From NCBI GenBank assembly GCA_030673825.1, contig JAUTCS010000124.1, positions 1 to 64,000 of the forward strand: DNA of 64,000 bases. The letters are read 5' to 3'. Both the position numbers and the translations under genes were made by a program. Below, piece by piece: positions 35,547 through 54,894 of the stretch; the stretch's first letter is position 1; the number at the start of each line of letters is the position of its first letter. The notes beneath the pieces were generated by a model. That model searched no databases, was not told the origin of the DNA, and worked only from the letters and a program-made list of their open reading frames with translations. Origin of the DNA: Verrucomicrobiota bacterium JB024 (GTDB lineage: Bacteria > Verrucomicrobiota > Verrucomicrobiia > Opitutales > Cerasicoccaceae).

Positions 35547-37136
35547 TTACTTATGTTCGCCCAGCGGATGCTGTGCGCTCTGAAACCATGCATCATGGAG
35601 GGTTATAAGCTCATCCATTTTATTCGATTGTCCACCTGCCAGGTTGCTGGTTTCGGTGGTATCTTCGCTCAAATCATAAAGCTCCCATAGACTTCCGGGG
35701 TTTTGGACCAACTTCCAGGGCCAATCAATCAGGGCTTTGCCCTCGTGCCATTCGAAAAAGAGCGGTCCGCGAGGGGGGCACGCGTTATCGAAAAGAAGGG
35801 GAGCGAAGCTTTCGCCCTCCAGCGAAGCCACGGTCTCGCCGTTGACGGTCGGCGGGTAGGCTGCGTCGGCCAGGTCAATAAACGTCGCCATGAAATCCAC
35901 GAGGTGCCCGGGCTGGTGGACGAGGCGGCCAGGGTTCACGATACCGCCGGGCCAGTAGGCGATCAGCGGGGTGCGAATGCCTCCTTCGTAGCTGTAGGTT
36001 TTAAAATAACGAAAAGGGGTATTGGCCACGTTCGCCCAGTTCGAGCGCAGAGAGGCGTAGCGCTCCTGACCTCCGATGGGGACAGAGGTGTCGCCGCGCA
36101 CGGTAAACTCCGCGCTGGCACCGTTATCCGAACAAAACAGGATCAGGGTGTCCTTCTCGACACCCAGTGTTTTTAGCCGCTCCAGAATACGTCCAATATT
36201 CTGATCCACCCGGTCGATCATCGCGGCGTAGACCTGCATCCGACGGGCCTCTTCCTTCTTTTGCCGCGTGCTGAGCCTATCCCACGGGACATAGGTGGGA
36301 AGACTTAGCGGAGCGGTTTCCGGGTCGATCAGTCCGCAGGCGACTTGTCGCTGATAGCGGGCAGTGCGGATGGCGTCGTAGCCGGCTTTATAGACACCCT
36401 CGTACTTGGCGATATCTTGTGGCCATGCCATGAGAGGGTCGTGCGGTGCCGTGAAGGCCAGATAGAGGAAGAACGGTTTATCACCGCCAGCGTAGTGGTC
36501 AAGGTATTCGAGGGCCTTGTCCGTAAATGCATCGGTGGTGTAAAAGCCTGGTGGGAAATAGTCCTGGTGCTCCGGGTCTAGGGTGTTGAATTCCAGACTG
36601 TCGTCCACCCAGGTTCGCGGGCTACCTTTTTGGGCGGGCGCGGGTTCGTCGGGACGCTGCAAGCCCGGATTGAAATGATTACAGGCTCCGTCCCGCAGCC
36701 CGTAGTAGTGGTCGAATCCGCGATCATAGAGATTGTCCAAGCCGTGGTGTTTGCCGGAGGCTAGTGTAACATAGCCAGCGCTCTTAAGCACCTCTCCCAA
36801 TGTCGTTGCATGCTGGATTCTGGCAGGTTGCGTACCGGTGCCGGTACGCTGTGCATAGACCCCGGTGAGTAGGCAACTGCGGGACGTAAAGCACTTGGAT
36901 GTGTTGTAGAAATTCGTGAAACGCAAGCCCTGGTCCGCCAGTCGATCCAGATTGGGGGTCTGGATCTCGCCACCATAAGCTCCGATGTCTGACCAGCCCA
37001 TGTCGTCAACCATGATCAGTATAATGTTTGGACGGACCGTTTGCTCCGATTCCCCGGACGTCAAGCCCTGGCTCTCTGCCCTCAGGCAAATGTAGGGGAA
37101 AAGAAGTAGAAGGCCGGCTGCGACTATTTTGCTCAT
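35547..37136 (-). CDS. Secreted sulfatase with atypical CFTSR active site
   Basis: A 529-residue protein with a signal peptide (KIVAAGLLLLFPYICLRAES), the metal-binding start IILIMVDDMGWSDIG, and the signature C82-F-T-S-R86 followed by SCLLTG. The usual proline of the C-x-P-x-R signature is replaced by threonine. The rest is normal for arylsulfatases: GKHHGLDN, CSDNGAS, GGIRTPLIAYWPG. ATG 37136 is chosen because it begins the signal peptide. It is divergent from another sulfatase gene, and operator site E lies between. Likely removes sulfate esters from polysaccharide in the periplasm. Confidence 0.85.
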   Translation of the reverse strand: MSKIVAAGLLLLFPYICLRAESQGLTSGESEQTVRPNIILIMVDDMGWSDIGAYGGEIQTPNLDRLADQGLRFTNFYNTSKCFTSRSCLLTGVYAQRTGTGTQPARIQHATTLGEVLKSAGYVTLASGKHHGLDNLYDRGFDHYYGLRDGACNHFNPGLQRPDEPAPAQKGSPRTWVDDSLEFNTLDPEHQDYFPPGFYTTDAFTDKALEYLDHYAGGDKPFFLYLAFTAPHDPLMAWPQDIAKYEGVYKAGYDAIRTARYQRQVACGLIDPETAPLSLPTYVPWDRLSTRQKKEEARRMQVYAAMIDRVDQNIGRILERLKTLGVEKDTLILFCSDNGASAEFTVRGDTSVPIGGQERYASLRSNWANVANTPFRYFKTYSYEGGIRTPLIAYWPGGIVNPGRLVHQPGHLVDFMATFIDLADAAYPPTVNGETVASLEGESFAPLLFDNACPPRGPLFFEWHEGKALIDWPWKLVQNPGSLWELYDLSEDTTETSNLAGGQSNKMDELITLHDAWFQSAQHPLGEHK

Positions 37137-37206
37137 TATACGTTTAAATTGTGAGTGTAAGAGAGCCATGGACAAGCACTGAGGTTTTACGGCAGCCATC
37201 AAATAT

Positions 37207-37222
37207 ACTCATCGCGATGAAC
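37207..37222. promoter_or_regulatory. Operator-like palindrome between divergent sulfatase genes (site E)
   Basis: ACTCATCGCGATGAAC, with the inner TCATCGCGATGA an exact palindrome. It is 70 bases from one sulfatase start and 52 from the other and could control both. Confidence 0.7.
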
Positions 37223-37274
37223 GGAGCGGAAATATACCTTGGCCAAAGAGGCCACGACATTCTTAATAGGCATA

Positions 37275-38765
37275 ATGAAGACCATCTTCGTGCTTTTCGA
37301 TTCGCTGAATCGGCATTCGCTCCCCCCGTATGGTGGATCAGTGGTCGCCCCCAACTTCGAACGTCTGGCCCGGCAGTGCGTCCTTTTCGACAACGCCTAC
37401 GTGTGCAGCATGCCGTGTATTCCAGCCCGACGGGATATGCACACCGGTCGGCCGAATTTCCTTCATCGCTCGTGGGGGCCACTGGAGCCGTTCGACGACT
37501 CCATGCCGGCGATGCTCAAAAGCGCCGGCGTCTATACGCACCTGATCAGCGATCACTTCCACTACTGGGAGGAAGGGGGCGCCAGTTATCACACAAAGTA
37601 TAATTCCTGGGAGTGCATCCGCGGGCAGCAGGGCGATCCCTGGGTACCGCAGGTACGCAACCCCGAGCCGATCGATGGGCCGGCCTTGCGTGAAGAGGGA
37701 TTAACACTTCCGGGAGGCAGCGTACGCCAGGACACCGTTAACCGTCAGTTCATACGCGAAGCCGACCAGTGGCCCATCTCGCAGGTATTTTCCCAGGCGG
37801 AAAAATTCCTCGAACATAACCATCGCGAGGACAACTGGTTTTTGAAGATCGAGACCTTTGACCCGCATGAGCCGTTCTATGTCCCTCACAATTACAAGGA
37901 TCTTTACCCTGAACATTTCAGTCAATATGCAGGCCGCGATCTGGATTGGCCCCCCTATCGGCAGGTCAAGGAATCGCCAGATGAAGTCGAGCACATCCGC
38001 TATACCTACGATGCGCTGGTGTCCATGTGCGACGAGAAGCTGGGCGACCTGCTGGACTGGATGGATCGCCACCAGATGTGGGACGACACCCAGTTGATTG
38101 TTGCCACCGACCACGGCTTTCTTTTGGGAGAACACGACTCTTGGGCGAAGTGCTGGACCCCGTTCTATAACGAGATTGCCCGTACCCCGTTTTTCATCTG
38201 GGACCCGCGCTGTCGCAAGCGAAACGAGCGTCGCAATGCGCTGGTGCAGCCGTCAATCGACATCGTCCCGACCGTTTTAAAATTTTTCGGACTCGAACCA
38301 ACCACGCGCATGACTGGCTGCGACCTGGCCGCAACGGTCGCTGACGACACACCGGTGCGCGAGACAGGGGTGTTTGGGATGTTCGGCTCCCATGTCAATA
38401 TCACCGACGGGCGTTATGTGTACATGCGCGGCAACCCCGAAGGTCAGCCCAATCAACCGCTTTACGACTACACACTCATGCCTGCCAATATGCGGACGCC
38501 TTTTCCTCACTGGCGTTTTGCGGAGCCGCTGGAGTCTGCCACCTTCGATTTTACGCAGGGTTGCCATGTCATGAAACTGCGCGCGCCGATGAGTCCGGAC
38601 AAACGATTCGAAACACGGCTCTACGATCTGGAGACTGATCCCGGACAGGAAAAACCGATACAGAATGGAGCCGTTGAGTCCAACCTGCTAGCCTCACTCA
38701 AGGCTCACTTAGTAGAGCTCGACGCGCCCTCCGAGCAGTGGGAGCGGCTGGGACTAGCCCGATAA
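37275..38765 (+). CDS. Sulfatase, formylglycine type
   Basis: A 496-residue protein with the start KTIFVLFDSLNRHSLPPYGG and the sulfatase signature C48-I-P-A-R52, then RDMHTGR. A later VATDHGFLLGEHDSW supplies metal ligands. No signal peptide is visible, in contrast to its divergent neighbour, so the pair may act in different compartments. ATG 37275 is used because the conserved protein begins there. Operator site E lies in the 138-base gap. Confidence 0.85.
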   Translation: MKTIFVLFDSLNRHSLPPYGGSVVAPNFERLARQCVLFDNAYVCSMPCIPARRDMHTGRPNFLHRSWGPLEPFDDSMPAMLKSAGVYTHLISDHFHYWEEGGASYHTKYNSWECIRGQQGDPWVPQVRNPEPIDGPALREEGLTLPGGSVRQDTVNRQFIREADQWPISQVFSQAEKFLEHNHREDNWFLKIETFDPHEPFYVPHNYKDLYPEHFSQYAGRDLDWPPYRQVKESPDEVEHIRYTYDALVSMCDEKLGDLLDWMDRHQMWDDTQLIVATDHGFLLGEHDSWAKCWTPFYNEIARTPFFIWDPRCRKRNERRNALVQPSIDIVPTVLKFFGLEPTTRMTGCDLAATVADDTPVRETGVFGMFGSHVNITDGRYVYMRGNPEGQPNQPLYDYTLMPANMRTPFPHWRFAEPLESATFDFTQGCHVMKLRAPMSPDKRFETRLYDLETDPGQEKPIQNGAVESNLLASLKAHLVELDAPSEQWERLGLAR

Positions 38766-41222: not shown

Positions 41223-42014
41223 CTAGAAATGGTGTAGACGCGGCCTATCAACATGCACAATATTCACCCCCTGGTCGCGCATTTCGTTTTCCACCAACGA
41301 GAGACCTGGCGGGCGATCCGTGATGAGCGTATCAATTCTTTTGACTCCGCAAACCCGGCACATGGCTCGTCGGCCAAGTTTGCTCTGGTCGGCAAGAATG
41401 ATCGCACGATCGCTGCGCTCAATCATCCGGCGCTCCGTTTCGACGATGGGCTCGGAGGTGTTGTAGAGGCCATCGCCGGCAATTCCACCAACGGAAAGAA
41501 AAGCCCAGTCGGCATGATAAAAGTCCAGGCTGTGAAGCGTGCCGGGCCCGGTCAACATGTTGGACCCGTGCTGGATTTTTCCGCCAGTCAAGTAGACTTC
41601 CCAACCAGAGTAGCGCGCAGCGGCATCATCGAGATATGCCGAAAGCCGTAGGGAATTCGTCACGATGCGTAATGGCAGGCAGGGCAGGTGAAAGCAAATG
41701 TGGTAAGTAGTCGTTCCTCCGTCGATAAAGACAACATCCCCCGCCCGCAGCAGTCCGCAGGCTTTTTTGGCGATGGCAGATTTCGCTTCGGAGTGCTGCA
41801 CCTCGCGGAGATTGAAAGGCACATTTCCCTCCTTGCGCACGCTCTGAATGCCCCCGCGGATACGCTCAATCGCTCCGCTCTCGGCCAGTTCGTCAAAGTC
41901 GCGCCGGATAGTCGCACGGCTCGCTTGCGTCGCCTGCATCGCTCGCTCCTGATAAAGCAGCCCCCGCTCCCCCACCAAACTCAGGAGGCGTTCATGTCGC
42001 TCGGGCTTGTTCAT
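41223..42014 (-). CDS. DeoR-family transcriptional regulator
   Basis: 263 residues: N-terminal winged HTH (RHERLLSLVGERGLL ... ASRATIRRDFDELAESGAI), then the DeoR sugar-phosphate sensor domain with IDGGTTTYHI, IVTNSLRL, GG-rich AFLSVGGI and ADQSKLGRRA. Known: these repressors respond to phosphorylated sugars. It is divergent from the isomerase-epimerase operon, and three short direct repeats lie in the gap. ATG 42014 matches the usual family start; a longer frame to 42044 overlaps one of the repeats. Confidence 0.85.
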   Translation of the reverse strand: MNKPERHERLLSLVGERGLLYQERAMQATQASRATIRRDFDELAESGAIERIRGGIQSVRKEGNVPFNLREVQHSEAKSAIAKKACGLLRAGDVVFIDGGTTTYHICFHLPCLPLRIVTNSLRLSAYLDDAAARYSGWEVYLTGGKIQHGSNMLTGPGTLHSLDFYHADWAFLSVGGIAGDGLYNTSEPIVETERRMIERSDRAIILADQSKLGRRAMCRVCGVKRIDTLITDRPPGLSLVENEMRDQGVNIVHVDRPRLHHF

Positions 42015-42036
42015 CGCTGCACCAAATAGATCATAA

Positions 42037-42086
42037 AAGCTCATATTTTTGAATCAAAAAAGCTCAACAAAATTCACAATAGCTCG
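42037..42086. promoter_or_regulatory. Direct repeats, candidate DeoR operator
   Basis: AAAGCTCA occurs at 42037-42044 and 42059-42066, and ATAGCTCG at 42079-42086. Spacings of 22 and 20 bases place them on about the same helix face. DeoR-family proteins often bind direct repeats near their own start. Confidence 0.5.
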
Positions 42087-42118: not shown

Positions 42119-43786
42119 ATGAAACTTCGACTCGGCATCAAATCAGACCCGGTCAACTACCGTTATTCTTTTCCGTGGCTTTTCCGCCTCATGGCCGAGA
42201 CCGGTGCCACGTCGTTGCAGTTCGGTTCCTTCTTCGAAATGTACCAGTTGCCGGATGCGTGGTTCCTGGAACTGCGCCGGCAAGCTGAGGACCACGGCGT
42301 CAGCATAGACAGTTGCTTCACTGCGCACCGCGAGCTGGGGGGCTTTTTCCGCGAAGACGCGGCCTGGGCCCTGGTAGCGCGACGGAATTTCGAGCGCTTC
42401 ATCGAAATTGCCGCCCTGCTCGGAGCGCGGGCCGTCGGCTCGAATCCGGGCGCCGTGCCGCGGGACCTGATGGGGCTCAAGCCGCAGGGCCTGCGCCGTT
42501 ACCTCGAGCACATGAAAGCCCTAATGCACATCGCGCACGACCGGGGCATCGAGTGGCTGACCATCGAACCGATGTCCTGCCTAGCCGAGCCGCCCACCCT
42601 GCCCTCGGAGATTGCGGAGATGGCCGGGGAACTGGCCGCGTATCACGAAAACAACGTGACCAGTACCGCGAAAGTCGGCTATTGCTCGGACATTTCTCAC
42701 GGCTACTGGAATGCCGACCGCAGCACATGCGTGAGCCATCTTGACCTCTTCCAGGCCGCCCTGCCCTGGCTTTACGAGGTCCACCTCAAAAATACCGACC
42801 GGGACTATGATTCGACCTTCGGTTTTGAGCCGGATAATGTCGCCAAAGGCATCATCGATGCCGCGTTCTTCCGACAGCTGATTGAGGATAACGCGGATAC
42901 GATTCCCGTCGACACGCTGCACTGCTACCTGGAAATCGGCGGGCCCAAGCTGGGCCGGGATTACTCCGACCACCGACTCGACGCCCAACTGCGCGAATCC
43001 TTAACCTATCTCCGGGAACACTTCATGCGGGAGTCCGCGCCTTCTGCCGAGATTGACGCCCGCACGCCCGTCACCGTCCCCCCCTCTACAGACAGAGTGC
43101 AGATTTCTCCCTCCATGATGTGCGTCGATCAGCTCAACTTCGAGCACGCGCTGCGGCAAGTCGAGACGCTGGGCGTGGACATGCTCCACATGGACATCAT
43201 GGACGGCCATTACGTCCCCAATATGCCCATGGGCCTGTCGATGGTCGCCGAGTTATCCAGGAAAACCGCCCTCCCCATCGACGTTCACCTCATGGTGCAG
43301 GACAACGATTTCTTCATCGGTCAGCTGGCCGGACTCGCGATCAGCCAGATTTCCATCCACGCCGAGTCCAGCCGCCACCTGGACCGCTCGCTGGAGGCGA
43401 TCCGCAACCTCGGGGCTCGGGCGGGGCTGGCCATCAATCCCGCGACTCCGCTGGAAACCCTGGAGTACGCACTGGAGCGGCTCGACTACGTTCTCATCAT
43501 GACCGTCAATCCCGGCTTCGCGGGACAGAAGCTCACCCCGGCCTCGCTGCGCAAGATCGCCGACTGCCGCCGGTACCTAGACGCCCACGGATACAATCAC
43601 CTGCCCATCCAGGTCGATGGCAACGTCTCCTTCGCCAACATCCCCAGCATGGTAGCCGCCGGTGCGAGCAATCTCGTCGCGGGGACCAGCAGCATCTTTA
43701 ACCGGGACGCCAGTTGGAGAGAAAACCTGGTCAGGATCAAGAGTGCCATCGCCGAAGGCCAACGCCCGTTGGCGCGGACCGCCTGA
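42119..43786 (+). CDS. Fused TIM-barrel sugar isomerase and ribulose-phosphate-3-epimerase-like enzyme
   Basis: 555 residues in two complete domains. Residues 1-300 are a xylose-isomerase-like TIM barrel (start KLRLGIKSDP, IEPMSCLAEPP, YEVHLKNTDRDY) like sugar-phosphate isomerase/epimerases. Residues 325-540 are a ribulose-phosphate-3-epimerase barrel: ISPSMMC, HMDIMDGHYVPN, DVHLMV, MTVNPGFAGQK, QVDGNV and AGTSSIF, with all metal ligands present. Known: the second type swaps carbon-3 of ketose phosphates, including allulose-6-phosphate. Fusion suggests consecutive steps on one phosphorylated sugar. First gene of an operon with two dehydrogenases and a kinase. Confidence 0.8.
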   Translation: MKLRLGIKSDPVNYRYSFPWLFRLMAETGATSLQFGSFFEMYQLPDAWFLELRRQAEDHGVSIDSCFTAHRELGGFFREDAAWALVARRNFERFIEIAALLGARAVGSNPGAVPRDLMGLKPQGLRRYLEHMKALMHIAHDRGIEWLTIEPMSCLAEPPTLPSEIAEMAGELAAYHENNVTSTAKVGYCSDISHGYWNADRSTCVSHLDLFQAALPWLYEVHLKNTDRDYDSTFGFEPDNVAKGIIDAAFFRQLIEDNADTIPVDTLHCYLEIGGPKLGRDYSDHRLDAQLRESLTYLREHFMRESAPSAEIDARTPVTVPPSTDRVQISPSMMCVDQLNFEHALRQVETLGVDMLHMDIMDGHYVPNMPMGLSMVAELSRKTALPIDVHLMVQDNDFFIGQLAGLAISQISIHAESSRHLDRSLEAIRNLGARAGLAINPATPLETLEYALERLDYVLIMTVNPGFAGQKLTPASLRKIADCRRYLDAHGYNHLPIQVDGNVSFANIPSMVAAGASNLVAGTSSIFNRDASWRENLVRIKSAIAEGQRPLARTA

Positions 43787-43856
43787 CAAGCCGCCGCCTC
43801 GCCATGGCAACCCGGCTCCCGCGCGGCATCACACACAACCCTCCCGCCATCAAAAG

Positions 43857-44963
43857 ATGACCAGAAATCTCGTTTACATACTCGATCAACCCGGTGGCCG
43901 TTTCACTGCGACCGAGGAGATCCTTCCTCCACCCGGACCGGGCGAGATCCTCATCCGCGTGCGGCGGACCTCGGTCTGCCAGTCGGATGTCGTCATTTAC
44001 GAGGCCGGCCTGCCGCGCATCCGCTCCTGGCCCGCCGTGATCCTGCACGAGGTGAGTGCCACGGTGGAAGCTGTCGGCGCAGGCGTGACAACGTTTGCCC
44101 CGGGCGACCTGGTCGGCCTGGGCTGCGACATCCCTTGCGGAGACCGCGCCTGCATCTACTGCGGCGATCATGGTTCGGGCGACTGGACCTACTGCCCGCA
44201 CACCCAGGCCACCGGTCACGAGTTCCCGGGCTTCGCCCGCACACACGCCATCCTGCCGGACTGGTTCGTGGCCCTCGGCCCCATCGTCAGATTCGATCCC
44301 GGCACCGACCCCGACCACGCCTGCCAGCTTGAACCGCTTGCCTGCTGCCTGGAGGGGATGACCCGGGTCAACCATTGCATCGAGAACCGCGTCGTCGTGC
44401 TGATTGGAGCCGGTTCACAGAGCACCTACGCACTTCAATGCGCCCTGGCGATGGGCGCGCGCAAGGTCATCCTCGTCAACCGCGGACGTGAACGCCTGGA
44501 GCGCGTTCTGCAGGACTTCGGCGACGAGCGCGTGGTCGGCGTCGCCTGGGACGACGAGGTGGTCAAAAACGTGCTCGCCGCCAGCCGCCCCTTCAACGAA
44601 CCGCACTTTGTCATGATCAACGTGCCCGCCGAAGCCGGGTACCGACTGGCCACCCAATTGCTCGGTTACGGAACCGTGCTCGACGCCCATGCCGGCGTGA
44701 AGGGAGCGGGCGGCAAGCCGCGCATCGCGCACGACGTGGACCTGAACAACGACATCCACTACAAGCTCCAGTGCTACCAGGCCACCCACGGCTCCAGCAT
44801 GCATGGCATCGGACTGGCTCATGCCATGATCAATGGCCGCAAACTGCCGCTGCTCGACCGCATGACGAACGGAACGGAGCGCTTCCCTCACACCCAGATC
44901 CGGGAAGCCATCAGCCGCGCCGCCGACAAAGACTCCCTTAAGGTCATCATCAACTGGGACTAA
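43857..44963 (+). CDS. Zinc-dependent medium-chain dehydrogenase (polyol/sugar type)
   Basis: 368 residues with a catalytic-zinc region (TSVCQSDV, ILHEVSATVEAV), four structural-zinc cysteines (CDIPCGDRACIYCG and a later C), and a nucleotide-binding loop VVLIGAGSQSTYALQCA. It resembles L-sorbose-1-phosphate reductase-like proteins, but the match is loose. It lies 70 bases after the isomerase-epimerase gene, same strand. ATG 43857 is selected because residues upstream look non-coding. Likely oxidises a polyol or reduces a ketose with NAD(P). Confidence 0.75.
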   Translation: MTRNLVYILDQPGGRFTATEEILPPPGPGEILIRVRRTSVCQSDVVIYEAGLPRIRSWPAVILHEVSATVEAVGAGVTTFAPGDLVGLGCDIPCGDRACIYCGDHGSGDWTYCPHTQATGHEFPGFARTHAILPDWFVALGPIVRFDPGTDPDHACQLEPLACCLEGMTRVNHCIENRVVVLIGAGSQSTYALQCALAMGARKVILVNRGRERLERVLQDFGDERVVGVAWDDEVVKNVLAASRPFNEPHFVMINVPAEAGYRLATQLLGYGTVLDAHAGVKGAGGKPRIAHDVDLNNDIHYKLQCYQATHGSSMHGIGLAHAMINGRKLPLLDRMTNGTERFPHTQIREAISRAADKDSLKVIINWD

Positions 44964-45024: not shown

Positions 45025-46080
45025 ATGAAAGCTCTCGTCCTTGAAGCCGACCGGCAACTCGTTTACACAGAGAATCACCCGATGCCGACAGCGCCGGATG
45101 AGCGCCCGACGGCGCTGATAAAAATCGCTGCCTGCGGTATCTGCGGCTCGGACATCCCCCGGGGGTTCGGCGGCAAGGCCTACTTCTACCCCCTGGTCAT
45201 GGGCCATGAATTCAGCGGGATCGTCGAGGAGCCAGTGGCGGGTGGACGCTTCCGCCAGGGCGAGCGCGTGGCGGTGTTCCCACTCATCCCCAAACACATG
45301 CACACCGACCCGGCCAACCAGACGGGCAACTACGCGCAATCCCGCGAGTACGACTACTACGGTTCCCGGCGCGATGGCGCCTTCGCGCAATACCTTCGCA
45401 TCCCGGAGTGGAACCTCTTCCCCGTGCCGGATCACGTGGACCTCCTGCACGCCTCCATGACCGAACCCGCCGCCGTCGCCCTCCATGCCGTGCGCAAGCT
45501 GCGCGTGATCGCTGGCAGCGACGCGGCCGTGCTCGGCGCAGGCCCCATCGGCAACATGGCAGCCCAGTGGCTGCGCATCCACGGGTGCGGGCGGGTGTTC
45601 GTCGTCGATGTCGAGCCGCGCAAGCTGGCGCTGGCGGAGGAAATGGGGTTCGTGCCGGTCAATGCCACCCAGGGAGATCCGGTTGCGGCCATTCTCGATG
45701 CCACCGATGGCGCGGGCGTCCAGTGCAGCATCGAGGCCTGCGGCCTTCCGGTCACGTTCCTCCAGGCAGTTCGGCTCGCGGGTATGTTCGGCGAGGTGGT
45801 CTTCATGGGTAATATCGCAGGCGAGTTCAAGATCGGCGAAAAGGACTTCTCCAACATCCTGCGCAAAGAGCTGACCATTCACGGCACCTGGAACAGCAAG
45901 ATCACCCCCACCGGCGCCGACGACTGGTCCACCGTGCTCAAATACCTCGACCGCGAGTTGATCGTAGCCCCGCTGATCACGGACAAACTCCCGCTCTCGG
46001 CAGGCCCGGCTATCTTCGATGACCTCGTGAACCGCCGCCACACTCACAACAAGGTGATCTTCGATGTCTTGAACAGTTAA
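45025..46080 (+). CDS. Galactitol-1-phosphate/sorbitol dehydrogenase-like enzyme lacking structural-zinc cysteines
   Basis: 351 residues of the medium-chain dehydrogenase family: catalytic-zinc ligands in ACGICGSD and MGHEFSG, GSRRDGAFAQYL, and the nucleotide loop AAVLGAGPIGNMA. The part that normally holds four cysteines for structural zinc (here KHMHTDPANQTGNYAQS) contains none. Relatives oxidise galactitol-1-phosphate or sorbitol. Gene follows the other dehydrogenase by 61 bases; a PfkB kinase gene follows. Confidence 0.8.
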   Translation: MKALVLEADRQLVYTENHPMPTAPDERPTALIKIAACGICGSDIPRGFGGKAYFYPLVMGHEFSGIVEEPVAGGRFRQGERVAVFPLIPKHMHTDPANQTGNYAQSREYDYYGSRRDGAFAQYLRIPEWNLFPVPDHVDLLHASMTEPAAVALHAVRKLRVIAGSDAAVLGAGPIGNMAAQWLRIHGCGRVFVVDVEPRKLALAEEMGFVPVNATQGDPVAAILDATDGAGVQCSIEACGLPVTFLQAVRLAGMFGEVVFMGNIAGEFKIGEKDFSNILRKELTIHGTWNSKITPTGADDWSTVLKYLDRELIVAPLITDKLPLSAGPAIFDDLVNRRHTHNKVIFDVLNS

Positions 46081-46120: not shown

Positions 46121-47032
46121 ATGCGGAACATCATTACCATCCTCGGCAGCTCGAACCTGGATTACGGTATCAAACTGCCGCGATTACCGGGCCAAGGGGA
46201 AAGTGTGACGGGTGGCCATTTTTTTCACTCTTTTGGCGGCAAAGGTGCCAACCAAGCCGTGGCGGTGTCCCGGGCCGGGCACAAGGCCCGCTTCATGACC
46301 GCCCTCGGCCCGGAAGCGATCAATGATGCCATGCTGGATTCCTTCCAGAGTAACGGACTGGAGCTCAGCCACATTTACCGAGACAGAACAATCCATACCG
46401 GCACAGCTGTCATCATGGTAGGGGAAGAGGGCAAAAACTATCTGGGGGTCGATGCTGGCGCAAATCACTGTCTGTCTCCAAACTGGGTGCGTGAGCATGA
46501 GATTGCATTTATTGACTGTGCCCGACTAGTCCTGCAATTGGAGATTCCAATCGAGGTGAATGCCGCCGCGATCCAAATCGCACGCTCCCACGGGGTACCG
46601 ATCCAGCTCAACTTCGCTCCTTACGATCCACAAGCGACCAGACTACTCAAAGACATTGATTGCCTCATCGTCAATGAAGTCGAAGCCCGGCAACTAACGG
46701 GACAGGCGGTCCTCGGCCCGGAATCGGCCCTCGCGGCAATCCGGCACCTACGCATGCTCGGCCCCCACACAGTCATCATAACCCTGGGACATCAAGGGGT
46801 AACAGCGGGTGAGGGAGACCATTTCCTCTACGAGCCTGCGTTGCCGGTGAACGTTGTGGACACAACGGCAGCAGGAGATACCTTTTGCGGATATCTGGCA
46901 GCCACCATAGCCAACGGCACCCCTTTGGCTGAGGCCGTCCGCTGGGCGAACCGTGCAGCTGCCTTGGCGGTAACAAAGCCCGGAGCGCAAGACTCCATCC
47001 CCGCTCGCGACTCGGTCAACTTCCTCTTCTGA
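46121..47032 (+). CDS. PfkB/ribokinase-family sugar kinase
   Basis: 303 residues: ILGSSNLDYGIKLPRLPGQGE at the start, FGGKGANQAVAVSRAG substrate/nucleotide motif, and VDTTAAGDTFCGYLA, the anion hole with catalytic aspartate (the usual G is A). Known: ribokinases phosphorylate pentoses and related sugars. Last gene of the plus-strand set started by the isomerase-epimerase; its phosphorylated product could be the DeoR effector and the epimerase substrate. Confidence 0.85.
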   Translation: MRNIITILGSSNLDYGIKLPRLPGQGESVTGGHFFHSFGGKGANQAVAVSRAGHKARFMTALGPEAINDAMLDSFQSNGLELSHIYRDRTIHTGTAVIMVGEEGKNYLGVDAGANHCLSPNWVREHEIAFIDCARLVLQLEIPIEVNAAAIQIARSHGVPIQLNFAPYDPQATRLLKDIDCLIVNEVEARQLTGQAVLGPESALAAIRHLRMLGPHTVIITLGHQGVTAGEGDHFLYEPALPVNVVDTTAAGDTFCGYLAATIANGTPLAEAVRWANRAAALAVTKPGAQDSIPARDSVNFLF

Positions 47033-48414: not shown

Positions 48415-51400
48415 CTAGAGTTTAGGGGTTGGTGAAGTTGAGAGAGGCTCGAGCATGAGCCCCAAATGCCCTCCATGGGGTAGGTCCACACGGTACACCG
48501 TTGACATGTCGCCAGCGACGGAGATTTGCCGGAGCGCGGACGCCGGCAAGGCTTCCCCATCCAGTCGTACCTCCTGCACTCCCCCACGTGTGGCGAAATC
48601 CACAGTGAGGGGCTGCGCGGACTCCAGCTCAACGCTCAATATCCCATCGGCCGCCGAGTAGTCGCTGCGCACCAGGCGGGCGGGCTCCCAATTGACGAGA
48701 TACACGCCGGTCTCATGTCCGCTGTAGGCACCCAGCATCCCGCTGTTCAGATAGGACGGCAGCTCACGCCTGCTGTTTTTAAGCCAGACCCGCATATCCT
48801 CCTCCAAGTCCTCCGCCGGCCAGTCCTTCAAGCGGCTGCGCATCGTGATATGGGCACCGGGACGACTTTTATTAAAAGGCATTTCCCGCCAGTCGGAGAA
48901 GTATTCATCCATGATCTCCGACTGATAAGTGTAGAAGAATTCAGGGGAGAGCATTTCCAGATAGAAATCGTACATCTCCGGCATTTCGCCCACCCATGCC
49001 AGTAGCATGGCGGCATGATCCAGACCATTCGGTCGGCCAAGGCCCGCCTTCTCAATCGCAGGACCATCCTCGGCAAATCCGACACCATACAGCTCCGGAT
49101 CGCGGTTGTCCGGATCGAGATACTCGGGCATGGCCATGCGCAGGGCCGTGGCGGCTCCGATCTTGGCGCGCAGATAAGCCAGACGCTCGTAATCTTCCTG
49201 CTCGCCCAGCACCTCCGCCATGCGCTCCATCGCTACGACGCCGGCATAGGCAATGGTGTCCATATCGATCGCCCCGTATTTGATCGCTTCGCGCGAGGTT
49301 GTCTCCGGCACCGCCCAGTCGTTGAGCACTTCAAAGATACGCAGCGAGTCCATCACCCGGGGCCACAGCCGGCGGACCGTCTCCCAGTCGCCCGAATACT
49401 TCGCATACAGATACAGCGAGTACGCCGACTGTCCCACACACGAGTTCGGGTCACCGTACATCACAGGGCGCGCCTTGGGGTCCACCCACCCGCTCACGTA
49501 ATAGGGAGCCTTGCTGAAGCGTTCCTCACGGTAAACCCAGGATGCATTGGAATAGAACCGGTCTACCACCGAGCGGGCCGTGTCCAGCAGTTGCTCGCGG
49601 GCCGGCTCGCTCAGGTAGCTTCCCCCCAGCAAGCCCTGAGTCCAGCGCTTGACAATGGACAAGCGCCACGGCTCGAAGTCCTTTGGCTGTATGGCGACCG
49701 CTGCGCCGATCTCCGTCTCAACCGCCGCGTACTCCTCTTCAAACTCCGGGCGTCGCGGGAAGGCCGCGTGCCAGGCATTGAAGCGCGGCAAGGAATAGTG
49801 CAGGCGGTCACCTCGTTCCCAGCGCCACGGCCCAAAGGGTGTGGCGATGTCCGAGGAGACGGCGAGCGCATCGCCCGCGGGAATGCCTTCCCAACCCAGC
49901 AGGTCCTTCGCCAGGCTGAAGATAGGCGGGATCGGAGCGTAGTCGGGCGCTTGCCATTGAGGATCGCCCCACCGCTCGTAGCGGAACACGTCCAACACTT
50001 TCACCTCCTCGGCCTCCACGCGGTAATACTCGCGGCATTCGATCGGGTACGTTCGCAACATCCGTGCTAATAAGCGGGCGCGATCAGCGACGTTACCCGT
50101 CTCCCAATGATCATTGAGCAGGCCGTAAAAGGCGGTGCTGACTCCCCACCGGCCTTGCGGCAGCTCCAGCCCGGCAGCCGTCCACTTGATCGCCCCGGCA
50201 GCGTCGCCAGTCATCAGCACGGCAACCGCCTTATCCCCCCAAAAGGTGGGCTCGCCGTCCTCGATTCCCCAGATGGCGACAATCCAGGGCTCACGCAGAT
50301 GGCGAATCGTCTGAGGCTTGGTGAGGAGGCCCTCGCTCGTCAGAACAGCAGACGGTCCCACCCTGCGCACGCCCCCCTTCCCATTGTCAGCCAGCTTCTG
50401 GAAGCGCCCTTCTTCCTCATCGGGGGCGCCGCTGCGCACCGGGAGATTTCCGGCCCCACGCGAGCTCAAGTGCAGGTTAACGGGGGAATCGACGAGGAAG
50501 CCGGGCGCGAGGATCCCATAGTAATACCTCGCCACTTGGCCCGTTTCCAAGGTGCGATCCATCACCATCGTCGTCCAATTTATATGAATCCGCTCATTCT
50601 CATGATCCGACTGCCGGAGCTTCACCTTCCAGGCGGCATCGGCACGCCCGGTGTCGTCGAGTTGCTGGCCGTCGGTCCAGAGGTCGAAATCCTGCCTCCG
50701 GTGCAGGTTCTCGGCATTGGCCGTGTAGGCGCGGAACCACGAGCTGCCCGCCAGTTCAGTCAGCAATCCATTATAGGTCGAGTTTCCAAAACGGCCAGCC
50801 GTCTGGTAGCTCATCCCTTCCGTCCATGTTTCACCATCCACCTCTATCACCGGAAAATTCAGCTCGGGCAAAGGCGACCACACATTCTCATCCACCCACG
50901 GCTCCACCGGATTCACATCATCCAGCCGCACCGGGATGCTCGGATCGTCGCTGCCGACGTAGAGCTGCTCCAGGTGCTGCGCATGAGGCTCGAAGCCGTA
51001 ATTGGCGACCGGGACCAGCGAGGCCAGTGAAACCTCATAGTCATGAGTGCCCGCTTGGACATTCAGCGGCGGGAAGTCGAACGTCATCCGCCCCTTGCCG
51101 ATGGTAACCCACGCGCTGACTTTCGTCGGCGTTTTAGCCGTGATGGTCAGACGCAGATTTTTCTGATGGGGCTGCAAGGGCTTTTCAATGAATGACCAGT
51201 TGTCAGGACCGTAAACGGCCTCTCCAATCCCTGCAAATCCTCCCCAAGGCATCGCCCCCTGTCCTGCATAGGTTTCGAGGACGTGGATCTTCAACGTTTC
51301 AACTTCCAGATCAACCGGCACCGCCTGGATGACTCCGTGCTCGTTTTTCAACTCGACGACAAAGCGTTCCTCTCCGTTCACCGAGATGAGTAGCTTCTTC

Positions 51401-51723
51401 GGCAGCGACCAGTTCCCATAGCCGCCCTGAAGAAAAGCCAGCTGCGAAATGTGCCTCGGCTTTTTAAAGCGGATGCTCGTATCGCTGCCCTTGAGCGGCC
51501 GGAGAAAGGTGGTGGTTTTGGTCTTTCCGTCCAGAAGCCCTTTCGTGGAGCGTTCCTGGTCGCCAGAAGATGTCTTGATCTCTTCGATTTCATCCGGCGC
51601 CCATCCCACCCATCGAAGCGGAGGTTTGGACTCCGCCTCGATGACCGGCAGGTTTGTCATGTCCGCCCGCACACTGAGCAGACAAAGGAAGGAGGCCGAA
51701 AGCCAGGACAGCTTCTTCATCAT
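48415..51723 (-). CDS. Large secreted (alpha/alpha)-toroid glycan-active protein
   Basis: 1102 residues. A signal peptide (KKLSWLSASFLCLLSVRA) precedes beta-sandwich domains (to about residue 500) and then an all-helical toroid of the kind found in many glycosidases and lyases (SQ-rich repeats such as GQSAYSLYLYAKYSGDWETVRRLWP, GAIDMDTIAYAGVVAMERMAEVLG, NGLDHAAMLLAWVGEMPE). The last 100 residues return to beta. I cannot name the family; an enzyme acting on uronate- or rhamnose-containing glycans is plausible from the fold and setting. ATG 51723 is used; another ATG is adjacent at 51720. Confidence 0.55.
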   Translation of the reverse strand: MMKKLSWLSASFLCLLSVRADMTNLPVIEAESKPPLRWVGWAPDEIEEIKTSSGDQERSTKGLLDGKTKTTTFLRPLKGSDTSIRFKKPRHISQLAFLQGGYGNWSLPKKLLISVNGEERFVVELKNEHGVIQAVPVDLEVETLKIHVLETYAGQGAMPWGGFAGIGEAVYGPDNWSFIEKPLQPHQKNLRLTITAKTPTKVSAWVTIGKGRMTFDFPPLNVQAGTHDYEVSLASLVPVANYGFEPHAQHLEQLYVGSDDPSIPVRLDDVNPVEPWVDENVWSPLPELNFPVIEVDGETWTEGMSYQTAGRFGNSTYNGLLTELAGSSWFRAYTANAENLHRRQDFDLWTDGQQLDDTGRADAAWKVKLRQSDHENERIHINWTTMVMDRTLETGQVARYYYGILAPGFLVDSPVNLHLSSRGAGNLPVRSGAPDEEEGRFQKLADNGKGGVRRVGPSAVLTSEGLLTKPQTIRHLREPWIVAIWGIEDGEPTFWGDKAVAVLMTGDAAGAIKWTAAGLELPQGRWGVSTAFYGLLNDHWETGNVADRARLLARMLRTYPIECREYYRVEAEEVKVLDVFRYERWGDPQWQAPDYAPIPPIFSLAKDLLGWEGIPAGDALAVSSDIATPFGPWRWERGDRLHYSLPRFNAWHAAFPRRPEFEEEYAAVETEIGAAVAIQPKDFEPWRLSIVKRWTQGLLGGSYLSEPAREQLLDTARSVVDRFYSNASWVYREERFSKAPYYVSGWVDPKARPVMYGDPNSCVGQSAYSLYLYAKYSGDWETVRRLWPRVMDSLRIFEVLNDWAVPETTSREAIKYGAIDMDTIAYAGVVAMERMAEVLGEQEDYERLAYLRAKIGAATALRMAMPEYLDPDNRDPELYGVGFAEDGPAIEKAGLGRPNGLDHAAMLLAWVGEMPEMYDFYLEMLSPEFFYTYQSEIMDEYFSDWREMPFNKSRPGAHITMRSRLKDWPAEDLEEDMRVWLKNSRRELPSYLNSGMLGAYSGHETGVYLVNWEPARLVRSDYSAADGILSVELESAQPLTVDFATRGGVQEVRLDGEALPASALRQISVAGDMSTVYRVDLPHGGHLGLMLEPLSTSPTPKL

Positions 51724-51768
51724 AACAACTGGTCGATATGGGCTGGTCATTATTCTAAATCTTACAGC

Positions 51769-52620: not shown

Positions 52621-52688
52621 GTGCGGGGATGTCATTAGGATCGCAGTTAGAATGAACTATATTCTTGCAAAGGTATCAATCTCGGCCA

Positions 52689-53783
52689 ATGACAACAGTT
52701 GCCATGCGAGTCAGCCTACGAGCCATAGCCGCCGAGACCGGCTTGAACGTATCCACGGTTTCCCGGGCGCTGCGCAACAGTTCGCGTGTCAATGCGGAGA
52801 CCCGTCTCATGGTTCAGGAGGTCGCTGAAAAGCTCGGTTACATCCGGGACCCGCTGCTGGCCGCGGCGATGACATTCGCGCGAAAGCCGGATAAGCCCGT
52901 GTACCGCGAGACCATCGCTTTTTTAACTTTCTCCGACAAGAATGACTACACGAAAACCCCATGGCTGCGAGGCGTGCATACCGGCGTCTCCGAGCAGGCC
53001 GCCAAGATGGGGTATTCGATCGAACATTGCCGGATCTCGTCCCAGCCTGAGCGTCAGTTCGCGCTCGGGCGACAACTACTCGCCCGGGGGATACGCGGCT
53101 GCATTGTCTATCCGACGACTCCCGACCTTGAGCAGCGTACGGTTTCCATCAACATGAATTGGGACCAGATCGCGGGGGTCGAGATCGGCCACGCGCTGGT
53201 ATCACCGGTTCTGCCATGCGTAATCCGCAACCAGGCGGACGACATGCAGATGATGCTCTCGAACCTGCATAAGCGCGGCTACCGCCGGATCGGCCTGGCC
53301 GTGAGCCGGGCTGACGAGGAGAAGCGCCGCTGGGCCGTGCACTCGGCGTGCATGCTATTCTCCTGGCAACACGCAGAGGTCAGCTATTCCGCTATCTTCG
53401 CCGGGGAAGACAACTATACCCGGGATTCATTTCTGCGCTGGTTGAACCGGGAACATCCTGATGTCTTGATTATCAACGGCCCCGGCGTGCTCCAATGGCT
53501 TTCCCAGGCAGGGATAGCCGTCCCGCACGATATCGGCCTGTGCCGGATCGACTCCGATACGACCGCGAAGGAGAGCGGTCTTGTTGTGGACTATGTTCGC
53601 TTTGGCACGACCGCCGTGAACCAACTAGTCATGACGCTAGAGCGAGCCAGCACCGTGCCAACGGCGACGGAAAGCCCGGGCGCACTGACGCTGAGCCTGC
53701 CTAGCACATGGCATGAGGGTGAAACACTGCGGGCTCCCGCGCAGATGAAAGTCAGGAGCAAGCGCCAGTCGCGAAAAGCCTGA
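52689..53783 (+). CDS. LacI-family transcriptional regulator
   Basis: 364 residues with HTH VSLRAIAAETGLNVSTVSRALR, hinge LGYIRDPLLAAAM, and a sugar-binding sensor domain (ETIAFLTFSD, VPHDIGLCRIDSD). ATG 52689 fits the family start. It is followed 10 bases later by a second LacI gene, a tandem layout that suggests duplication and division of labour. Confidence 0.9.
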   Translation: MTTVAMRVSLRAIAAETGLNVSTVSRALRNSSRVNAETRLMVQEVAEKLGYIRDPLLAAAMTFARKPDKPVYRETIAFLTFSDKNDYTKTPWLRGVHTGVSEQAAKMGYSIEHCRISSQPERQFALGRQLLARGIRGCIVYPTTPDLEQRTVSINMNWDQIAGVEIGHALVSPVLPCVIRNQADDMQMMLSNLHKRGYRRIGLAVSRADEEKRRWAVHSACMLFSWQHAEVSYSAIFAGEDNYTRDSFLRWLNREHPDVLIINGPGVLQWLSQAGIAVPHDIGLCRIDSDTTAKESGLVVDYVRFGTTAVNQLVMTLERASTVPTATESPGALTLSLPSTWHEGETLRAPAQMKVRSKRQSRKA

Positions 53784-53793
53784 CGCCAGCCAC

Positions 53794-54894
53794 ATGACTT
53801 CGAGAAGCCATATGCAAGCTCCCCGTCAAGAACTTCCCCACCGCACGACGATGACCGACATCGCCTCCGAGGTAGGCTGCTCGCTGATGACGGTCTCGCG
53901 GGCTCTGCGGGGAGCCCCCAGGGTCGCCGATTCCACCCGCCAGCACATCATCGCCACCGCGATCAAGCTCGGCTATCGTCCCGATCCGGAAGTCAGCCGT
54001 CTCATGGGGCACCTGCGCCTGAATCGAACCGCACAGCCCGAGACTATCGCCTGGATCACGTCCGAGTCCACCCGCGACGGTTGGCAAGATTCTCCCGCCT
54101 ATACCGAGCTTTACACCGGCGCGCAAGCCCATGCTCACAGTATCGGTTTTCAACTACAGCCTTACTGGCTCAAGGAGAAAAACATGACCGCTAAACGCCT
54201 CGGCAGCATTCTGCGCAATCGCGGCATTCGCGGTGTCATCGTCGGTCCTCAGCCCCAATCCTGTACGGTGATTCCCAATCTGGGTTGGGAGCACTTCGCC
54301 GCCGCCACCTGCGGATTTTCGCTTCAGGAGCCGCGCCTGCATCGCGCCTGCAGCCAGCAGTACCAGGCACTCTCCCTGGCTTGGGATGAACTGAGGAAAC
54401 GCGGTTACCGGCGGATCGGGTTTGCCCTTTCCGTCGAATCCAACCTGCGCACGGAGGGCATGTGGCTGTCCAGCTTCCTCGCCCGGCAATCCACCCCCTC
54501 CCCCACCCGCTTCGACATTATTCCACCGCTCGTGCTCGAACAGTGGGACGACCGGCGTTTCCTCGCCTGGTTTCACCAGCATCGCCCGGATGCCCTCATC
54601 GGCTGGTCGGACGCCGCGGAACTTTTACGCAAAAACGGCATCCCCATCCCGCAAACGTGCGCGTATGCGCTGATCAACACAGCCGGGCTCGCCTCCCCCG
54701 CTGCCGGAGTCAACCACCACATGGATGCCCTCGGAGCTGCTGCGGTTGACCTCGTGGCGGAGCAACTGCACCACCACCGCTACGGGCTCCCGGCCATTCC
54801 CAAGATCGTGATGGTCGAATGTTCCTGGAGCGACGGACCGGATGTCCCCCGGCGCCTTGAGCACAAGCCCGGCAGGCGTAGAACCGGGAAATAA
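53794..54894 (+). CDS. LacI-family transcriptional regulator (second of tandem pair)
   Basis: 366 residues: HTH TMTDIASEVGCSLMTVSRALRG, hinge LGYRPDPEVSRLMGHLR, sensor domain ETIAWITSES onward. Similar in length and layout to its neighbour but clearly diverged. A perfect 17-bp palindrome, a good LacI-type operator, lies 64 bases after its stop and ahead of the next enzyme gene. Confidence 0.9.
   Translation: MTSRSHMQAPRQELPHRTTMTDIASEVGCSLMTVSRALRGAPRVADSTRQHIIATAIKLGYRPDPEVSRLMGHLRLNRTAQPETIAWITSESTRDGWQDSPAYTELYTGAQAHAHSIGFQLQPYWLKEKNMTAKRLGSILRNRGIRGVIVGPQPQSCTVIPNLGWEHFAAATCGFSLQEPRLHRACSQQYQALSLAWDELRKRGYRRIGFALSVESNLRTEGMWLSSFLARQSTPSPTRFDIIPPLVLEQWDDRRFLAWFHQHRPDALIGWSDAAELLRKNGIPIPQTCAYALINTAGLASPAAGVNHHMDALGAAAVDLVAEQLHHHRYGLPAIPKIVMVECSWSDGPDVPRRLEHKPGRRRTGK

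Follow-up and report, generated by a model that had tools for sequence, protein, structure and literature searches.

In Verrucomicrobiota bacterium JB024, a bacterium of marine type, we studied a gene whose product joins two TIM barrels. It lies in a stretch of 64,000 nucleotides (contig JAUTCS010000124.1, positions 1 to 64,000), which we call the window. An initial annotation of the window had described the gene as a fusion of two complete barrels that shares an operon with two polyol-type dehydrogenases and a PfkB kinase. This description holds: the open reading frame (ORF) runs through 555 codons, and both Pfam domains in it are close to full profile length. Residues 22-259 match AP_endonuc_2 (1.1e-15, profile positions 1-220 of 249), and residues 329-524 match Ribul_P_3_epim (1.5e-61, profile positions 2-196 of 198). 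We refer to these two parts as the N-barrel and the C-barrel. The fusion gene follows a divergent gene for a DeoR-family regulator, and is itself followed on the same strand by two genes for zinc dehydrogenases (ADH1 and ADH2) and the PfkB gene (Table 1).

The fusion is real. An assembly artefact joining two genes, the possibility that the initial annotation had raised against its own reading, is excluded because the same fusion recurs in independent assemblies. These include a one-contig genome (G094), two Cerasicoccus genomes (80% identity) and Planctomycetota. The two Cerasicoccus species, C. frondis (G104) and C. maritimus (G117), belong to the same family as the window's organism, and the genus is placed in Puniceicoccales of the Verrucomicrobiota. 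Among the matches listed from 372 genomes sampled from the order, at least nine genomes, the window's own included, have the full-length fusion at 65-100% identity, at least four have an N-barrel without the fusion, and one further genome (G258) has a fusion with a broken frame. In this last case, a metagenome-assembled genome (MAG), a frame change breaks the gene (L055:7501-9178, minus strand), and both halves are otherwise readable. Three genomes of the same genus as the window's organism (G020, G039 and G054) are represented among the matches listed only at the level expected of Rpe.

Beyond the order, a scan for conserved peptides in 84,980 species genomes yielded 12 loci. Fusions among them occur in a Blastopirellula sp., a Planctomycetota bacterium and an uncultured Pirellulaceae, and an unfused N-barrel occurs in Spirochaeta sp. 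UBA2779. With the N-barrel alone as query, matches at E 1e-30 or better were present in 6 of 288 genomes of a phylum sample, 4 of 246 around the Blastopirellula genome and 6 of 198 around the Spirochaeta genome, the central genome being counted each time. Given these rates, the N-barrel family is sparse yet widespread. Plasmid records contained no N-barrel match. The same pair of barrels accompanies the same dehydrogenases in three bacterial phyla.

In a tree of N-barrels, the 16 fused sequences make up one side of a branch with 100/99 support, and the phylogeny indicates a single origin of the fusion. Four N-barrel residues (E150, D191, H222 and E272) and four C-barrel residues (H357, D359, H390 and D500) are invariant in the 16 aligned fusions. 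By analogy with their families, we take these to be metal ligands or catalytic residues. K224, K277 and R280 are invariant as well, and might make up a phosphate site beside the metal site of the N-barrel. The frame-broken fusion and one cut by a contig end (L086) were left out of the alignment and trees. It is very likely that the gene encodes two working barrels of the epimerase type that act within one pathway. We suggest tentatively, and well short of certainty, that both are ketose-phosphate 3-epimerase-type barrels, each responsible for its own step in a single catabolic cassette. Even without a substrate, the gene illustrates the Rosetta-stone principle cleanly: one clade has the fusion, and elsewhere the same cassette has separate genes.

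Table 1. Features of the operon and of the fusion protein in the window
Feature	Position	Strand	Remarks
DeoR-family regulator	41223..42044	-	divergent from fusion
Fusion ORF, isomerase/epimerase	42119..43786	+	555 aa, open for 555 codons; coordinates include stop
N-barrel, about residues 1-302	42119..43024	+	AP_endonuc_2 fold, EryC-like; proposed L-ketose-1-phosphate 3-epimerase
Linker, about residues 303-325	43025..43093	+	length and sequence vary between fusions
C-barrel, about residues 326-545	43094..43753	+	RPE superfamily, AlsE-type signatures; proposed D-ketose-phosphate 3-epimerase
ADH1, zinc dehydrogenase	43851..44963	+	MDR superfamily; proposed ketose(-1-phosphate) reductase
ADH2, zinc dehydrogenase	45025..46080	+	GatD-related; proposed polyol-phosphate dehydrogenase
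PfkB kinase, ribokinase-like	46121..47032	+	stands where relatives carry RhaA or FGGY + RhaA

We compared 33 stretches of DNA including the window, 29 of which contain an N-barrel. These 29 loci are not independent events, since MAGs contributed several of the stretches and closely related genomes are among the sources (G242 and G258 are of one genus). The two barrels are fused or co-located in 27 of them. In 18 loci they are fused, counting the frame-broken and the truncated gene, and in 8 they are separate genes of the same stretch, which are the separate-gene versions in similar operons whose search the initial annotation had recommended. In one more genome (G310), the barrels lie on two contig ends. 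The second barrel is absent from L038 and L087. In separate-gene loci such as L056 and L059, the RPE-like gene is often divergent from the genes for ADH1, ADH2, the N-barrel and RhaA.

An ADH2 relative occurs in 27 of the 29 loci, and is missing from L086, where the contig ends, and from L087. ADH1, at 69-85% identity, occurs in 18 loci (the window and 17 other stretches). Of seven genomes tested, six have ADH1; G622 is without it, and in the Planctomycetota G620 and G621 it lies on another contig. A DeoR gene is present in 17 of the N-barrel stretches and on the second contig of G310. L-rhamnose isomerase (RhaA) is encoded in nine loci, and a RhaB-like FGGY kinase in two, L050 and L055, which are close relatives. 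PfkB is found in the window only (1 of 29 loci, 1 of 33 stretches), and we therefore rejected it as a core member of the cassette.

Other genes near these loci were also noted. A ribose-type ABC transporter adjoins the Spirochaeta locus L039, and the ATPase of that transporter has a counterpart in L038 at 41% identity. In L087 (2333-4218, minus strand), an N-barrel gene (45%) stands beside a gene resembling class II ketose-bisphosphate aldolases, and the dehydrogenases are replaced; thus, the N-barrel family has other partners. In the window, two divergent sulfatase genes (35547-38765) lie a few kilobases before the operon. Judged by eye from first residues, a gene at 19917-21725 is sulfatase-like and two adjacent genes at 52665-54894 (plus strand) resemble LacI-type regulators. 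A 1111-aa protein (48415-51750, minus strand) has no Pfam match at 1e-3.

The best characterized relative of the N-barrel is the epimerase EryC. A profile of 27 N-barrels finds PDB entry 4k3z, which is EryC although the entry carries the enzyme's former name, D-erythrulose 4-phosphate dehydrogenase, at 9.8e-7. Searched against 287 control sequences, the profile retrieved all five EryC proteins (one from the erythritol locus of Rhizobium johnstonii and four relatives), one of them in a second reading as well; no other control appeared at E 10. Aligned to single sequences with hhalign, the N-barrel reaches 95.6-96.8% for the five EryC proteins, and at most 6.0% for six others (UlaE 6.0%, FrlC 1.0%, four controls 0.3-1.1%). 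The homology to the EryC family extends over the full length of the profile, and the alignment pairs E150 (in EPMS), D191 and H194 (in DI-x-HG), H222 and E272.

Three other identities for the N-barrel were discarded. D-xylose isomerases show no significant similarity to the profile (E 0.84-0.85), and the xylose isomerase label names the fold only. UlaE- or FrlC-type epimerases were not found by the profile among the controls, and their hhalign values are low. A PDB search with the single N-barrel sequence gave nothing significant, its best match being D-tagatose 3-epimerase at E 0.072, and this enzyme is absent from the ten hits of the profile. A locus of like make-up, in unfused form, lies on R. 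johnstonii pRL12 (L130:282-2639). There, genes for a sugar phosphate isomerase/epimerase and an Rpe-like protein are two genes apart, with genes for Gfo/Idh, ROK kinase and ABC transporter proteins; hhalign does not relate this isomerase to the N-barrel (1.1%).

The pertinent passage of PMC10733421 identifies EryC as D-erythrulose 1-phosphate 3-epimerase, converting D-erythrulose-1-phosphate to L-erythrulose-1-phosphate, and that of PMC5992420 describes it as a tetrulose-4-phosphate racemase. Since the EryC reaction is a C3 epimerization of a ketose-1-phosphate, we propose from this homology that the N-barrel may be a ketose-1-phosphate 3-epimerase that acts in the same way on a ketose with a longer chain.

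The C-barrel scores 213.5 bits on the NCBIfam Rpe model TIGR01163, just above the cut-off of 212.6. This call carries no weight, because E. coli AlsE scores 212.4 bits on the same model (E. coli Rpe scores 319.6). We built a tree of 49 sequences, leaving out SgcE, one Rhizobium sequence and L061 for their long branches. The Rpe clade (15 sequences, 100/97) holds a second, housekeeping-type Rpe of the window's own genome, which is encoded on another contig and is 38% identical to the C-barrel; the C-barrel is outside this clade. Cassette C-barrels are also separate from the AlsE clade (four sequences, 96/81). Those encoded by separate genes form their own clade (nine sequences, 99/99), and the fused ones have a core clade of 13 sequences (94/100).

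In their loops, the cassette C-barrels have the letters of AlsE. AGQ occurs in 24 of 25, as in AlsE (L039 has SG), and GGQ in none; MC and a five-letter last loop of the GTSS type, the latter again as in AlsE, occur in all 25. The four sequences of the AlsE clade all share the signatures of the cassette C-barrels. In the Rpe clade, 13 of 15 sequences have G at the GxGGQ position, 14 have DGG and 12 a loop of four letters; the remaining ones could not be read or differ. Clade and signatures rule out a plain Rpe, despite a slightly higher overall identity to Rpe. We infer that the AlsE-type letters may set the specificity of the C-barrel, and predict with moderate confidence that it is a hexulose-phosphate-type epimerase. 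The tree also contains a side clade of the superfamily (100/100) made up of L128:1992-2657, L017, L018 and L026. In Parabacteroides, a gene of this clade adjoins genes for a TarI-type cytidylyltransferase and a CDP-glycerol glycerophosphotransferase.

Of the two dehydrogenases, ADH2 has the clearer affiliation. GatD, galactitol-1-phosphate 5-dehydrogenase, is its nearest relative among the enzymes tested (PDB 4a2c at 5e-49; profile score 284 bits; 34% identity over 298 residues), and ADH2 misses the cut-off of the GatD model NF007642 with 194.6 of 550 bits. GatD oxidizes the carbinol far from the phosphate, and the stereochemistry is such that a D-ketose-6-phosphate results. ADH1 is without a close characterized relative, its best PDB match being at 4e-18. 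We rejected its assignment by homology as a SorE-type ketose-1-phosphate reductase, given that identity is 22% and that a Rhizobium MDR protein and GatD score higher. Trees and profiles were made without the ADH1 of L057 and the RhaA of L033, which are each in two pieces.

The cassette RhaA is 59-63% identical to E. coli RhaA, and that of L034 passes the NCBIfam RhaA cut-offs (651.3 bits against 572, and 612.3 against 584.95). In a tree of 21 sequences, cassette RhaA forms its own clade (100/99), which spans both fused loci (G104, G095, G242, G258, G360 and G094) and separate-gene loci (G050 and G055). Nine genomes have a cassette RhaA, and in eight of these a further RhaA is encoded away from the cassette. 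Of the 12 RhaA genes in the tree that lie elsewhere in their genomes, ten fall outside the cassette clade; the two inside are second copies in G055 (C183, L118) and G360 (C77, L120). Clade-specific residues were listed for cassette RhaA, and no claim of specificity is drawn from them.

The window's genome has partial RhaA genes at or near contig ends, G000:C127:3-869 (L067) and G000:C152:4217-4714 (L068), which are perhaps one gene split by the assembly; the C127 piece belongs to the non-cassette clade. In the window's operon, RhaA seems either to have been lost or to be missing from the assembly, and PfkB stands in its place. The absence of RhaA from the window explains why L-rhamnose isomerase did not figure in the initial annotation. 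As for the kinases, PfkB is just under the ribokinase cut-off (283.1 of 299.65 bits). The FGGY kinase of L050 is 38% identical to RhaB and misses the NCBIfam rhamnulokinase cut-offs (440.5 of 527.95 and 381 of 639 bits).

What the sequences themselves show is the fusion with its conserved active-site residues, the set of genes, the existence of split versions, one origin of the fusion, and the relationships to EryC, AlsE, GatD and RhaA. Every reaction, substrate, step order and point of phosphorylation in the following scheme is what we infer. The need to turn an L-ketose into a D-ketose phosphate would make sense of a cassette with two C3 epimerases and two polyol dehydrogenases alongside a rhamnulokinase-like kinase and an isomerase for L-sugars. 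The RhaA paralogue, where present, would isomerize an L-aldose to an L-ketose, which would be phosphorylated at C1 by the RhaB-like FGGY kinase in two relatives or by PfkB in the window. The N-barrel would then invert C3 of the L-ketose-1-phosphate by EryC chemistry, and ADH1 would reduce C2 to give a polyol phosphate. ADH2 would oxidize the carbinol at the opposite end, and with the numbering thus turned round, the product would be a D-ketose-6-phosphate. Finally, the C-barrel would invert C3 of this D-ketose phosphate to yield a sugar phosphate of central metabolism. Because reading a polyol phosphate from the other end swaps L for D, a C3 epimerization before and one after it would correct C3 and C4. 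We regard an L-to-D ketose switch of this general form, for a hexose or a pentose, as quite possible, if short of probable.

In the hexose case, L-mannose would become L-fructose, L-fructose-1-phosphate, L-psicose-1-phosphate, allitol phosphate, D-allulose-6-phosphate and at last D-fructose-6-phosphate. Thus, two C3 epimerizations and one pair of reduction and oxidation across the pseudo-symmetric allitol phosphate, through which the route probably runs, would between them invert all three stereocentres of L-fructose, one time each. The N-barrel would account for C3, the C-barrel, after renumbering, for C4, and the dehydrogenase pair for C5/C2. There would be no net use of redox cofactor and no cleavage of a carbon-carbon bond. 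According to the relevant part of PMC9083112, an alcohol dehydrogenase converts allitol to D-allulose, which is the reaction of the free sugar. The substrate data given in PMC10908623 rank L-rhamnose isomerase substrates as L-rhamnose, L-lyxose, L-mannose, D-ribose and D-allose, and in the L. rhamnosus enzyme L-lyxose and L-mannose reach 28% and 16% of the L-rhamnose rate. The acceptance of both L-lyxose and L-mannose makes both pentose and hexose versions possible. Taken as specifically as this, with L-mannose or L-fructose converted to D-fructose-6-phosphate and both epimerases on one polypeptide, the proposal is itself rather doubtful.

Several results weigh against the scheme as a whole. 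The similarity of the N-barrel to EryC is remote (22% identity in hhalign): BLAST of the window's N-barrel against EryC gives nothing at 1e-3, the EryC profile recovers 7 of 27 N-barrels and misses that of the window, and the best PDB match of the N-barrel profile is 3qxb, an uncharacterized "putative xylose isomerase" (6.7e-8). The C-barrel misses the cut-off of the NCBIfam AlsE model NF007266 (185.3 of 271 bits) and is overall 40% identical to E. coli Rpe versus 36% to AlsE; fused and separate C-barrels are not recovered as one clade, the deeper joins being weak. Since ADH1 is not a SorE relative, its proposed reaction is without homology support. Four of the loci centred on Spirochaetes (L088-L091) have a different MDR protein (22-28%) at the place of ADH1, and no RhaA was found in them. 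A cassette RhaA was not found in the assembled genome of the window, and no kinase was recognized in 26 of the 29 loci, PfkB or FGGY being present in the other three. L-mannose, moreover, is rare in nature.

The nearest rival is a pentose version, in which L-lyxose or L-xylulose would yield L-xylulose-1-phosphate, the N-barrel would convert this to L-ribulose-1-phosphate, and the route would proceed via ribitol phosphate to D-ribulose-5-phosphate and, by the C-barrel, D-xylulose-5-phosphate. In the data given in PMC10908623, L-lyxose ranks second among the substrates of an L-rhamnose isomerase, E. coli RhaT is annotated as a rhamnose/lyxose symporter, the window's kinase is ribokinase-like, and the C-barrel just passes the Rpe cut-off. 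The loop signatures of the C-barrel are nevertheless AlsE-type, and it is the separate housekeeping Rpe of the window's genome, not the C-barrel, that falls in the Rpe clade; we consider the pentose version unlikely. The same low probability is given to a route over free sugars, of the galactitol or L-sorbose type, in which the N-barrel would be a free-ketose 3-epimerase, the dehydrogenases would act on free polyols and the kinase would come last before the C-barrel. The Agrobacterium galactitol pathway is of this free-sugar type. The kinase gene is indeed the last of the window's operon, and D-tagatose 3-epimerase came first, if insignificantly, in the single-sequence search. However, the profile favours EryC, a sugar-phosphate epimerase, over that enzyme, and ADH2 is nearest to GatD, which acts on a polyol phosphate.

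The initial annotation had read the barrels as xylose-isomerase-like and ribulose-phosphate-3-epimerase-like, on which reading an isomerase and a ribulose-phosphate epimerase would supply the pentose phosphate pathway with a pentulose derived from a polyol. The Pfam and NCBIfam names agree with this, but the relationship of the N-barrel to EryC, the AlsE-type signatures of a C-barrel outside the Rpe clade and the presence of an Rpe in the genome already make it improbable. Its wider suggestion of an uncharacterized route for a rare polyol or ketose survives in outline, a catabolic cassette for such a compound being the best reading; the kinase that it counted towards the route lies in the window's operon and is no part of what the loci share. 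Least probable by far is a tetrose route, in which the N-barrel would act on tetruloses as a genuine counterpart of EryC and a tetritol would be degraded by the cassette. EryC is the best characterized relative of the N-barrel, but the association with RhaA fits C5 or C6 sugars. The R. johnstonii erythritol locus contains, in order, genes for a kinase, a dehydrogenase, a TIM barrel, two regulators, and TpiA2-like and RpiB-like proteins, while tblastn found no TpiA2 or RpiB match at 1e-5 in the 33 stretches.

If the L-to-D ketose switch is correct in its hexose form, it would be a complete bacterial route from an L-hexose to D-fructose-6-phosphate. It would give a function to a conserved cassette whose genes are automatically annotated as "xylose isomerase", "Rpe" and "alcohol dehydrogenase", and the synthesis of rare sugars could draw on it for natural ketose-1-phosphate 3-epimerases and for an allitol-phosphate dehydrogenase. 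A small number of purified proteins would suffice to test so specific a prediction. We found no description of the fusion or the cassette, and no paper naming the proposed intermediates, in the literature searched, most subscription journals being outside its reach.

Each component resembles a known system in part. The N-barrel and EryC are similar along 290 profile columns and have in common the EPMS and D-x-x-HG motifs and the E-D-H-E metal positions, but the N-barrel has diverged to 22% identity, is fused to a second barrel, and is not accompanied by the isomerases TpiA2 and RpiB found beside EryC. The C-barrel has the MC, G(F/Y)AGQ, DG-non-G and five-letter terminal phosphate-loop signatures of AlsE, but it misses the AlsE cut-off, cassette C-barrels lie in clades of their own, and no AlsK or RpiB homologue was found beside them in the 33 stretches. 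With Rpe, the C-barrel shares the superfamily, the fold, the catalytic residues and 40% identity (E. coli Rpe), but neither the clade nor the loop signatures. ADH2, as noted, has GatD as its nearest tested relative and is far below the GatD cut-off. Cassette RhaA passes the cut-offs of the L-rhamnose pathway enzyme and the L050 FGGY kinase resembles RhaB, but the RhaA is a distinct paralogous clade, and there is no RhaD homologue in the 33 stretches.

For reducing a sugar at one end and oxidizing it at the other, the L-sorbose pathway is a precedent. There, SorE and SorD take L-sorbose-1-phosphate to D-glucitol-6-phosphate and on to D-fructose-6-phosphate. The functions of the sor genes are given in the corresponding section of PMC2831201. 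The sor operon differs from the cassette in that it has no epimerases, SorD is annotated as an SDR protein whereas ADH2 is an MDR protein, and ADH1 is not a relative of SorE. The component families are thus known ones, and the cassette is of the catabolic kind that combines sugar-phosphate epimerases and dehydrogenases; under the boldest reading, the pathway that they form would be new.

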